From NCBI GenBank assembly GCA_030533405.1, contig JAUNJF010000016.1, positions 1-64,000 on the forward strand: DNA of 64,000 bases, in the 5' to 3' direction. The stretch's first letter is position 1; each line of letters starts with the position of its first letter. This document shows positions 15,605 through 61,476 of this stretch, one piece after another. Below the pieces are notes generated by a model that saw only the letters and a list, made by a program, of their open reading frames with translations, did no database searches and was not told the DNA's origin. The stretch is from Eubacteriales bacterium. GTDB taxonomy: Bacteria; Bacillota; Clostridia; Lachnospirales; Lachnospiraceae. Made by a program: the position numbers and the translations under genes.

Positions 15605-16747
15605 ATGGAAGTATATTTTGACAATGCAGCGACAACAAAAATTATTCCTGAAGTTCGACAGATTATGTTAGAACTGATGGATGAGGAATATGGAAATCCG
15701 TCATCTATGCATAAAAAAGGGGTAGAGGCAGAAAAATATGTGCGTTATGCGAGAAATGTGATTAGTAAGCAGTTAAAATGTGATGCAAAGGAAATTGTGT
15801 TTACATCTGGTGGCACAGAGGCAAATAATCTTGCGTTAATCGGAATTGCGATGGCGAATAAGAGAACTGGTAACCATATTATTACAACTTCTGTAGAACA
15901 TGCATCTGTGTATAATCCGGTGTTGTATTTGGAAGAACAAGGCTTTCGAGTTGATTTTTTAAGGGTTAATCGAGATGGCAAGGTTGATTTGGAGCATTTA
16001 AAAGCGTTGTTATGTGAAGATACGATTTTGGTTTCTACTATGGCTGTAAATAATGAGATTGGAACGATTGAGCCAATCGAAGAGATCGCAAAGATGATTA
16101 AAGATTACAATGAAAAAATTATTTATCATGTGGATGCTGTTCAGGCATTTGGTAAAATGATAATATACCCAAAAAGAATTGGCGTGGACGCACTTTCTAT
16201 GAGTGGGCATAAGATTCATGGTCCAAAGGGAAGTGGTGCTTTATTTGTGGATAGCAAGGTGAAAATGATACCGATTATACATGGTGGCGGTCAGGAAAAA
16301 GGAATGCGTTCTGGTACAGAAAATACATTTGGAATTGCCGGTATGGGAAAGGCGACAGAGGTGATTTATGGTCGACTGGAAGAGAATCGAGCTGTCATGC
16401 AACAGGTAAAGGATGCATTGATTGCAGGTGCAACGAAAATAGAAGGTGTGACAAACAATTCAGGTGAAGCGCCACATATTGCTAGTTTAAGCTTTCAAGG
16501 TGTAAGAAGTGAAGTGTTGTTACATGCATTAGAGGATAAAGGAATTTGCGTGTCAGCAGGTTCTGCGTGTTCATCCAATCATCCTGCAATTAGTGGTGTT
16601 TTAAAAGCCATTGGACTTGATCAGGATTTATTGGAATCGACACTTCGATTTAGTTTTTCTGAGTATAATACAGTGGAAGAGGCGGAGTATACAGTAAAGG
16701 TGTTGGAAGAATTATTGCCAGTGTTAAGACGTTTTACAAGAAAGTAG
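15605..16747 (+). CDS. Cysteine desulfurase (NifS/IscS-like)
   Basis: A 380-residue PLP enzyme. The FDNAATT start, TSGGTEANNLAL, and HVDAVQAFGK are typical. The PLP lysine is K203 in SMSGHKIHGPKG, and the persulfide cysteine is C322 in SAGSACSS. It removes sulfur from L-cysteine as a protein-bound persulfide. Because thiI follows immediately, it most likely supplies sulfur for 4-thiouridine in tRNA and perhaps thiamine, as NifZ (YrbH-type) desulfurases do next to ThiI in Bacillus. No scaffold gene (IscU/SufU) is adjacent. Good AAGGAG ribosome site upstream. Confidence 0.93.
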   Translation: MEVYFDNAATTKIIPEVRQIMLELMDEEYGNPSSMHKKGVEAEKYVRYARNVISKQLKCDAKEIVFTSGGTEANNLALIGIAMANKRTGNHIITTSVEHASVYNPVLYLEEQGFRVDFLRVNRDGKVDLEHLKALLCEDTILVSTMAVNNEIGTIEPIEEIAKMIKDYNEKIIYHVDAVQAFGKMIIYPKRIGVDALSMSGHKIHGPKGSGALFVDSKVKMIPIIHGGGQEKGMRSGTENTFGIAGMGKATEVIYGRLEENRAVMQQVKDALIAGATKIEGVTNNSGEAPHIASLSFQGVRSEVLLHALEDKGICVSAGSACSSNHPAISGVLKAIGLDQDLLESTLRFSFSEYNTVEEAEYTVKVLEELLPVLRRFTRK

Positions 16748-16762
16748 GATTAGTGGTATAAT
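16733..16762 (+). promoter_or_regulatory. Candidate promoter of thiI at the edge of a palindromic element
   Basis: TTTACA (16733-16738), an 18-base spacer and perfect TATAAT (16757-16762). The -10 box overlaps the left end of the palindromic element, so a transcript from here would carry the whole palindrome as its 5' leader before thiI. Sequence match only. Confidence 0.45.
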
Positions 16763-16972
16763 AGATAGTTGTGAAACAAAATTTATACTGTAGAGATGTA
16801 CGATATAAATAAATCTAAGTTGAGTCGCTTTCGCTTAGTTGCAAATGTAACAGTACATAAGGTAGCAAAGAACGCTACCTAAGTACTGACATTTGCAAAT
16901 ACCTCAACTTAGATTGTTATTTATATTGTACAACATTATCTAGATAATTGAGAGTTTCACAATTATCTATTA
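16759..16972 (-). repeat. Palindromic repeat element, copy 1
   Basis: A 214-bp imperfect palindrome. The outer inverted repeats are 19 bp with one mismatch (16759-16777 and 16954-16972, core GTTGTGAAAC / GTTTCACAAT). Inside are paired arms (AATCTAAGTTGAG type with CTCAACTTAGATT), a perfect 10-bp stem (16839-16848 with 16889-16898), and a central hairpin GGTAGC / GCTACC with CAGTAC / GTACTG. The reverse complement aligns along its length with the element at 61231-61457, including five base-pair-preserving double changes. Read on the minus strand, a small loop GC-GAAA-GC (16827-16834) is a GNRA tetraloop. That is why the minus strand is assigned as the likely RNA sense. No coding capacity or transposase. 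Confidence 0.85.
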
Positions 16973-61163: not shown

Positions 61164-61230
61164 TACTTTCGAGGACAGGATGTGTTTGATATTTGAAAAG
61201 TTTTTGTCCACGTAAATTTAGTTTTTACAA

Positions 61231-61457
61231 TTTGAAATTAGGTGATTGCGAAACTCTCAACTATGTAAATTATAGTTGTACAATATAAACAACTATCTAA
61301 GTTGGGATGTTTACGAATGTCAGTACTTAGGTAGCGTATTTTGCTACCTTATGTACTGTTACATTCGTAATTAAGTGCAAACGACCCAACTTGGATTTGT
61401 TTATATTGTACAACTTTCAACCACTTAAATTGAGTTTCGCAATTGTCTAATTTGAAA
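61231..61457 (+). repeat. Palindromic repeat element, copy 2
   Basis: An imperfect palindrome of about 227 bp. Outer arms have 12 perfect pairs (ATTGCGAAACTC 61245-61256 with 61432-61443) and weaker pairing out to TTTGAAA-like ends. Next comes an 18-bp perfect helix (61275-61292 with 61397-61414), then CTAAGTTGGG / CCCAACTTGG, a 10-bp inner stem (61311-61320 with 61361-61370), CAGTAC / GTACTG and the apical GGTAGC / GCTACC. On the 3' side of the inner hairpin GT-GCAA-AC (61375-61382) forms a GNRA-like loop. Together these suggest a three-way-junction RNA sense on the plus strand. It matches the reverse complement of 16759-16972. No coding capacity. Confidence 0.85.
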
Positions 61458-61476
61458 TGAAAATAAGGAGAACAGA

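Follow-up and report, generated by a model that had tools for sequence, protein, structure and literature searches.

Two long palindromes in the window, the 64,000-nucleotide stretch of Lachnospiraceae DNA analysed here, are copies of a MITE, one family among the non-autonomous transposons without genes of their own, and this identification is well supported. The family shows terminal inverted repeats, target-site duplications, the absence of an internal transposase, a small size and an autonomous relative with matching ends. Judged from sequence comparison, the elements appear to be moved by transposases encoded elsewhere. The explanation that best accounts for the data as a whole, and which we consider very probable, is that of a MITE moved in trans, with a palindrome maintained at the level of DNA and a shared central core.

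The two copies in the window

Copy 1 lies between a cysteine desulfurase gene and thiI, and copy 2 lies between a glutamyl-tRNA-synthetase-like gene and a UvrD-like helicase gene. The boundaries of both were refined from their terminal repeats (Table 1). No open reading frame of 80 or more amino acids was found inside either copy. Copy 2 is flanked by a perfect target duplication (9/9 bp), and no recognisable target duplication was found in the flanks of copy 1.

Table 1 Features of the two MITE copies, in window coordinates.
Feature	Position	Strand	Basis or remark
Copy 1, whole MITE, 208 bp	16762-16969	- (the 'B' strand, which bears the GNRA mini-hairpin)	terminal repeats, fold
Copy 1, left terminal inverted repeat	16762..16779	+	5 mismatches to consensus
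Copy 1, right terminal inverted repeat	16952..16969	-	2 mismatches
Copy 1, conserved structured core	16808..16916	-	model R1, 118.3 bits (this core is among the 36 sequences used to build the model)
Copy 1, mini-hairpin GCGAAAGC, GNRA loop, 18 nt 3' of apical GTAC	16827..16834	-	
Copy 2, whole MITE, 211 bp, inverted relative to copy 1	61239..61449	+	terminal repeats, fold
Copy 2, left terminal inverted repeat	61239..61256	+	1 mismatch
Copy 2, right terminal inverted repeat	61432..61449	-	2 mismatches
Copy 2, conserved structured core	61293..61401	+	model R1, 118.5 bits
Copy 2, mini-hairpin GTGCAAAC, GNRA loop GCAA	61375..61382	+	
Copy 2, target-site duplication ATTTGAAAT, left copy	61230..61238	+	
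Copy 2, target-site duplication ATTTGAAAT, right copy	61450..61458	+	

Both palindromes, which an earlier note on this DNA had described, were present, and both fold far better than dinucleotide shuffles (z = -11.5 for copy 1; for copy 2, -13.4 on one strand and -15.0 on the other; each against 200 shuffles). The reverse complement of one copy aligns end to end with the other, as had been claimed. When the copies were compared over the 78 pairs of the copy 2 fold, 58 pairs were the same, five had changed on both sides and were still paired, and six had changed on one side and were still paired. A further six were changed on one side and broken, one was doubly changed and broken, and two were gapped. 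The five double changes listed in the earlier note are exactly the five in this tally; its compensatory changes were therefore right, but 13 other changed pairs, seven of them pair-breaking, had been omitted. The apical stems are identical in the two copies, as stated, but vary across the family (from AGGTAGC/GCTACCT to AGGTCAC/GTGACCT and other forms). Conservation of sequence at the tip is thus a property of this pair of copies, and family-wide the tip stem covaries freely.

No Rfam match was found in the window at the curated threshold, and the Rfam search that the note had proposed named no known family. A terminator scan found no terminator. A promoter scan gave one good promoter-like match (TTTACA-18-TATAAT, window 16733-16762), located where copy 1 begins on its left side; it agrees at 11 of 12 positions, has TG before the -10 box and ends on the first base of copy 1. 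A -10 box ahead of thiI may have been completed when copy 1 inserted. Across the copy 1 region, seven promoter-like sites were found against 2.0 expected.

A dispersed family and its candidate movers

In the genome that contains the window (G000; 3.15 Mb in 94 contigs, assembly completeness 95.8%), a search with copy 1 gave 61 matches, which include full-length and partial ones and fall on both palindrome strands. The terminal repeat TAGGTAATTGCGAAACTC occurs there at 100 sites with up to three mismatches, compared with eight for a reversed control, and the covariance model finds 34 cores. At 37 loci where element size was taken from inverted end pairs, the main class measures 208–213 bp; there are also elements of 51–52 bp (five), 80–91 bp (eight) and 112 bp (one), and three of 244–285 bp have larger interiors. 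The short elements look like internal deletions. Four of the five mini-elements of 51–52 bp (L057-L061) apparently have one internal junction in common, as judged by eye. Contigs C33, C69, C74 and C84 of this genome end within copies of the family, as expected if palindromes break short-read assembly. One element (L013, G000:C56:13010-13210) adjoins a SAM riboswitch match (G000:C56:13271-13368) and apparently lies directly after a hairpin and T run that resemble a terminator by eye. No copies were found in viral contigs with the exact pattern, or in plasmids and phages by blastn with copy 2.

Signs of transposition were sought in the flanks of cores from a manually compiled list of 140, consisting of better-scoring or listed matches rather than a random sample. 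Removal of five places entered twice left 135 distinct cores, 133 of them with enough flank. Direct repeats of at least 10 bp lie beside 36 of the 133, compared with 3.9 on average and never more than 8 in 50 partner shuffles of the flanks, and 29 of the 133 have a duplication of 8–14 bp directly outside inverted ends (37/138 and 30/138, respectively, before the double places were removed). Elements with duplications are 203–213 bp long in 28 of 29 cases, in a length search centred on the cores that allowed up to about 500 bp; the remaining one (L229, 411 bp) looks spurious. Across the family, target duplications are mostly 9–13 bp. Within the genome of the window, clear duplications were seen for 4 of 21 full-length elements (0.41 expected) and 2 of 14 short ones (0.06 expected). 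These few good duplications, and the lack of one at copy 1, fit old insertions and are not proof for copy 1. A coreless 51-bp element (L060) shows a perfect 10-bp duplication, which suggests that transposition can do without the core.

Relatives provide a view of the site occupied by copy 1. The gap between the desulfurase gene and thiI is 248 bp here versus 7–138 bp in the 23 relatives in which thiI was found, and the 210-bp element is absent from this gap in all 23. In one genome (G001, L413), a short element with like ends was observed in the gap before thiI, where copy 1 sits here.

None of the 135 distinct cores lies inside an open reading frame of more than 150 amino acids, and three have no flanking reading frame; a looser pass had found 1 of 76 overlapping a frame of more than 200 amino acids. 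Based on crude reading-frame calls, and taking the A strand as reference, the downstream gene points the same way in 91 of 132 cores and the opposite way in 41, and the upstream gene the same way in 71 and the opposite way in 61. Cores lie between diverging genes in 28 of the 132 cases and between converging genes in 8. This preference is a bias rather than a rule, and copy 2 itself lies the opposite way. All 14 inverted pairs of cores within about 700 bp of each other (L166, L170, L174, L182, L184, L185, L190, L131, L132, L136, L164, L165, L207 and L236) run minus then plus, with their B strands diverging, and at L035 three cores share one orientation. The idea that inverted neighbouring cores are the ends of a larger transposon was rejected: the interval at L188 holds ordinary, metabolic-looking reading frames, and at L189-L191 no transposase-like frame was seen by eye in the starts of the frames.

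The 26 genomes of the genus contain 25 PF01609 matches, of which only one (L101, in G008) is flanked by a pair of MITE ends with up to four mismatches; a close relative (L103) was found in G002. This type of insertion sequence is about 1.75 kb long and encodes a 491-aa transposase with a Pfam DUF772 domain and a weak DDE domain. The transposases of L101 and L103 scored 70.8 and 77.5 bits against NCBIfam IS1182, the best match listed, and are called only IS1182-like because the cut-off of 270 was not reached. The right end of the insertion sequence agrees with the MITE repeat at 17 of 18 positions in L101 and at 18 of 18 in L103, in full-length elements from two sister species, and the left end of the L101 type is TAGGCGTTTGCGAAACGCC. 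An 11-bp target duplication, TCATTTTAACC, flanks L101/L102, and L103 has an imperfect one (9/10). MITEs L208-L210 of a further genome (G020) have one end like each end of this insertion sequence. A protein match to the transposase occurs in 9 of the 26 genomes, with two full-length and the others partial copies, of which the one in G022 is a more distant relative (34% identity). A protein search found no transposase of the TAGG type in the genome of the window (assembly completeness 95.8%), and the copies there therefore look stranded. We propose that the DDE transposase of the L101-type element would recognise MITE ends in trans and move them by ordinary DNA transposition.

The genome of the window does contain a complete IS4-family insertion sequence (L078, 1655 bp) with ends CAATGTCATT and a 10-bp duplication, TCCAATTTGA. 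Its transposase and that of L079 fall in the IS4 family (NF033592, 180.6 and 172.2 bits for L078 and L079 against a cut-off of 115). The two transposases matched to MITE ends have no significant BLASTP similarity to each other (E 0.08), and both have DDE-type matches. The IS1182-like elements have TAGG ends in common with these MITEs; unlike the MITEs, the insertion sequences of both kinds lack the core, which was not found in 14 transposase loci (a single match, 14.2 bits, E 0.31). UPF0236/ISLre2, considered as a parent, gave no match in the genome of the window; as the same search matched 0 of 14 control genomes, the family may still be present.

A core shared by elements with different ends

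The core is about 109 nt long and has one architecture across an alignment of 36 cores from six genomes of the genus (A2, 36 of 38 cores, leaving out L071:501-609, truncated by an insertion, and the divergent L037; one further core analysis used 37 of the 38). An outer stem is followed by a second stem ending in GTAC and, past a conserved TT/TA(T) internal loop, by the apical stem. On the 3' side only, there is a two-pair mini-hairpin with a GNRA loop. In all 38 cores from a search that required the motif within 45 nt and left its position free, 17–18 nt separate it from the apical GTAC. Conserved family-wide are GTAC-TTA / TA(T)-GTAC, the pairs just below the tip stem and the GNRA loop. Of 156 distinct cores, 136 keep the internal loop, and the mini-hairpin has a GNRA loop in 146 and a GNYA loop in none; its stem covaries to GT/AC and AC/GT.

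With the covariance model, the core was found in every one of the 26 genomes of the genus, with between 1 and 94 copies per genome. In the order it occurs in 60 of 392 genomes, from 28 of 173 genera, and all 60 belong to the family of the window. These order-wide counts are minima, obtained with strict filters and at most nine candidates scored per genome. A scan with the exact pattern gave at least 116 stretches, labelled as Lachnospiraceae or its genera, Clostridiales, Clostridia, Clostridiaceae, Clostridium or Eubacterium; culturable carriers include Coprococcus catus, Roseburia porci and Butyrivibrio sp. NC3005. Five records labelled Bacteroidales (L296, L342, L349, L359 and L362) appear to be contigs of G009, a genome of this genus, and the label looks wrong. 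Across ten loci with cores, no core had an Rfam match at E up to 1. A sub-threshold match to Clostridiales-1 RNA was observed at L033:354-443 (31.5 bits against a cut-off of 48).

The core occurs with different ends. Two genomes (G019 and G023) hold 54 and 52 cores and no TAGG-repeat sites with up to one mismatch in 16. Cores flanked by duplications carry at least four kinds of end, namely TAGG(T/C)..., TTACTGTTCA (G016), CAATGTCATT (G021) and TAGCYATGAG (G009), the duplication evidence for the three rarer kinds coming from one element each, and some core elements have mixed ends. Because the CAATGTCATT end of MITE L137 is also that of the complete IS4-family element L078, one core is found in MITEs matched to two transposases. 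A centre shared across one bacterial family by elements with different ends is unusual. Tentatively, the core might be a portable, strand-specific folded single-stranded DNA or RNA that is recognised by a host factor of Lachnospiraceae and has repeatedly been acquired by transposons with different transposases and ends, with selection during their spread keeping the fold while the sequence drifts.

Pairing of the arms, rival explanations and known repeats

Among 16 full-length copies from the genome of the window, double changes occur in 34 of 78 pairs, on a structure taken from copy 2, itself one of the 16. Pairing holds in 94.9% of cells, whereas slid partners reach no more than 40.7%, and the covariation score of 0.277 compares with 0.119 for shuffled and at most 0.080 for slid controls. 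Within the core, double changes affect 27 of 35 pairs in A2, far above shuffled and slid controls, and 34 of 35 in A3, an alignment fitted to the model. Many copies do covary, whereas the earlier note had named a lack of covariation beyond phylogeny as a result that would tell against its reading.

In a transcribed strand that must fold, one-sided changes should appear as G.U and rarely as A.C. The 16 whole elements gave G.U 17 and A.C 21 on their consensus fold, 26 and 21 on the copy 2 fold, and 22 and 16 on the consensus fold of the opposite strand. By contrast, 25 RNase P RNAs of the same genus, treated by the same procedure, gave G.U 44 and A.C 5. Unlike RNase P RNA, whole elements are strand-neutral, which fits a DNA palindrome. 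Two other controls were discarded, tRNA acceptor stems for being too few (10 tRNAs; G.U 4, A.C 0) and the SAM riboswitch for being too conserved (G.U 6, A.C 1 at Watson-Crick-majority pairs). Other counts were mixed. Isolated arm mismatches on the B strand of 43 elements were G.T 38 versus A.C 15 (22 versus 15 distinct contexts). Changes between nearest neighbours at 18 confident core pairs comprised 16 G.U, 0 A.C, 13 double Watson-Crick, 5 other single and 2 other double, in a tally in which reciprocal neighbours can count twice. Consensus folds of 36 cores, which use different pair sets, gave G.U 4 and A.C 5 on the B strand, and 16 and 1 on the A strand. All cells of the 18 confident pairs taken together (2980) contained G.U 20, A.C 24, other 81 and Watson-Crick 2855. 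The GNRA-only mini-hairpin and the G.U excess in some counts favour one folded strand. On our reading the arms are a DNA-level palindrome, and the core may act as a folded B strand of DNA or RNA.

These patterns admit several readings. If the core acted as a structured B-strand RNA, in cis or in trans in the host, with MITEs as its carriers and means of spread, this would account for the double changes in 34 of 35 A3 pairs, for the excess of G.U over A.C among nearest neighbours (16 to 0) and of G.T over A.C among isolated mismatches (38 to 15), and for a loop that is GNRA in 146 of 156 cores and never GNYA, whereas stable DNA mini-hairpins take GNNA with any N according to PMC4686876. We nevertheless think this reading somewhat unlikely: whole elements show G.U 17 and A.C 21 where RNase P RNA shows 44 and 5, core alignments show 20 and 24 among 2980 cells, no Rfam match was obtained in the window or on a core at ten loci, and in most copies the B strand runs antisense to the gene that follows on the A strand (91/132 co-directional with A). 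The earlier suggestion of a structured RNA or a protein-recognised hairpin of a mobile element divides, with terminal repeats, target duplications, dispersed copies and a matching autonomous insertion sequence bearing out the mobile element, and evidence on both sides for the RNA. The covariation could also be functionless, one arm correcting the other by template switching or hairpin-primed repair so that double changes arise in one mutational step. The strand-neutral departures from Watson-Crick pairing in whole elements would follow, as would the 13 double Watson-Crick changes without intermediates among nearest neighbours and the frequent joint change of adjacent pairs (AGGTAGC to AGGTCAC). 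Such correction should yield symmetric arms, yet the mini-hairpin lies 17–18 nt from the apical GTAC in 38/38 cores, the TT/TA(T) internal loop persists in 136/156, and the core is common to different ends and genera, and we think this reading somewhat unlikely too.

A role for the core as a cruciform or transposition enhancer, aiding synapsis of the two ends by these transposases, is unlikely: the near-constant length of duplication-bearing elements (28/29 at 203–213 bp) would suit such a role, but coreless 51-bp elements are dispersed, one with a perfect 10-bp duplication, and the core accompanies the ends of two transposases without significant BLASTP similarity (E 0.08). REP/REPIN repeats with a RAYT are transposed as single strands by Y1 enzymes without target duplication. 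Although a bulged hairpin, many copies outside genes and some inverted neighbours recall such repeats moved as single-stranded DNA by a Y1 (RAYT) transposase, the present elements have target duplications and long terminal inverted repeats that match DDE insertion sequences, and we consider this origin very improbable.

Under the preferred explanation, a MITE moved in trans, the interior would be one long palindrome kept at the DNA level, with arms that diverge while staying Watson-Crick paired on both strands equally. Arm pairing would most likely result from repair or replication templated by the opposite arm together with selection of foldable copies during spread. In the least certain step, the core would be a module common to these elements, active as a folded single strand (single-stranded DNA or RNA) and helping them to persist or be tolerated. 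Counting against this explanation, templated repair alone should erase asymmetric bulges and the mini-hairpin, and both persist; strand neutrality is also not uniform, and the GNRA-only loops suggest RNA as well. The missing target duplication of copy 1, the small share of full-length elements in its genome with a good one (4 of 21) and the failure to find a TAGG-type transposase there weigh on the same side.

MITEs are expected to have ends in common with their own transposase and little else. ERIC, Correia/NEMIS, RUP, BOX and bcr1 are family- or genus-wide palindromic intergenic repeats, some with conserved centres or processed as RNA. Compared with these, the elements described here differ in hosts, ends and duplication length, and have ends that match a DUF772-type insertion sequence. 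REPs with GTAG or CGTC tags are likewise palindromic, extragenic and present in many copies, but are described as 20–40 bp long in the abstract of PMC3733652, compared with about 210 bp here, with terminal repeats and target duplications. According to PMC10969869, bacterial MITEs are short and geneless, have terminal inverted repeats and target direct repeats, occupy AT-rich intergenic sites, give transcripts predicted to fold as stable stem-loops and are thought to derive from insertion sequences. The present element agrees with the features given there, and differs in a core common to different ends and to 28 of 173 sampled genera of the order, in its near-constant length and in covariation that is strand-neutral along its full extent. 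Copy 1 has a mini-hairpin with the sequence of the extraordinarily stable DNA mini-hairpin d(GCGAAAGC) described in PMC4686876; unlike the mini-hairpins described there, the GNNA loops here always have a purine as third base, and the stem covaries. A literature search, whose coverage lay outside subscription journals and ISfinder, gave nothing on palindromic MITEs of Lachnospiraceae among the matches listed.

This MITE family is thus new but of a known type, and unusual for a core common to different ends and genera and for strand-neutral covariation. It carries the caution that massive double changes need not mean RNA, and a comparison of G.U with A.C alongside a known RNA control can help to separate DNA from RNA. 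With its many alleles per genome, the family lends itself to a natural test of the evolution of long DNA palindromes. A structured core common to different ends across one bacterial family suggests that the interior of these elements is under selection of its own.
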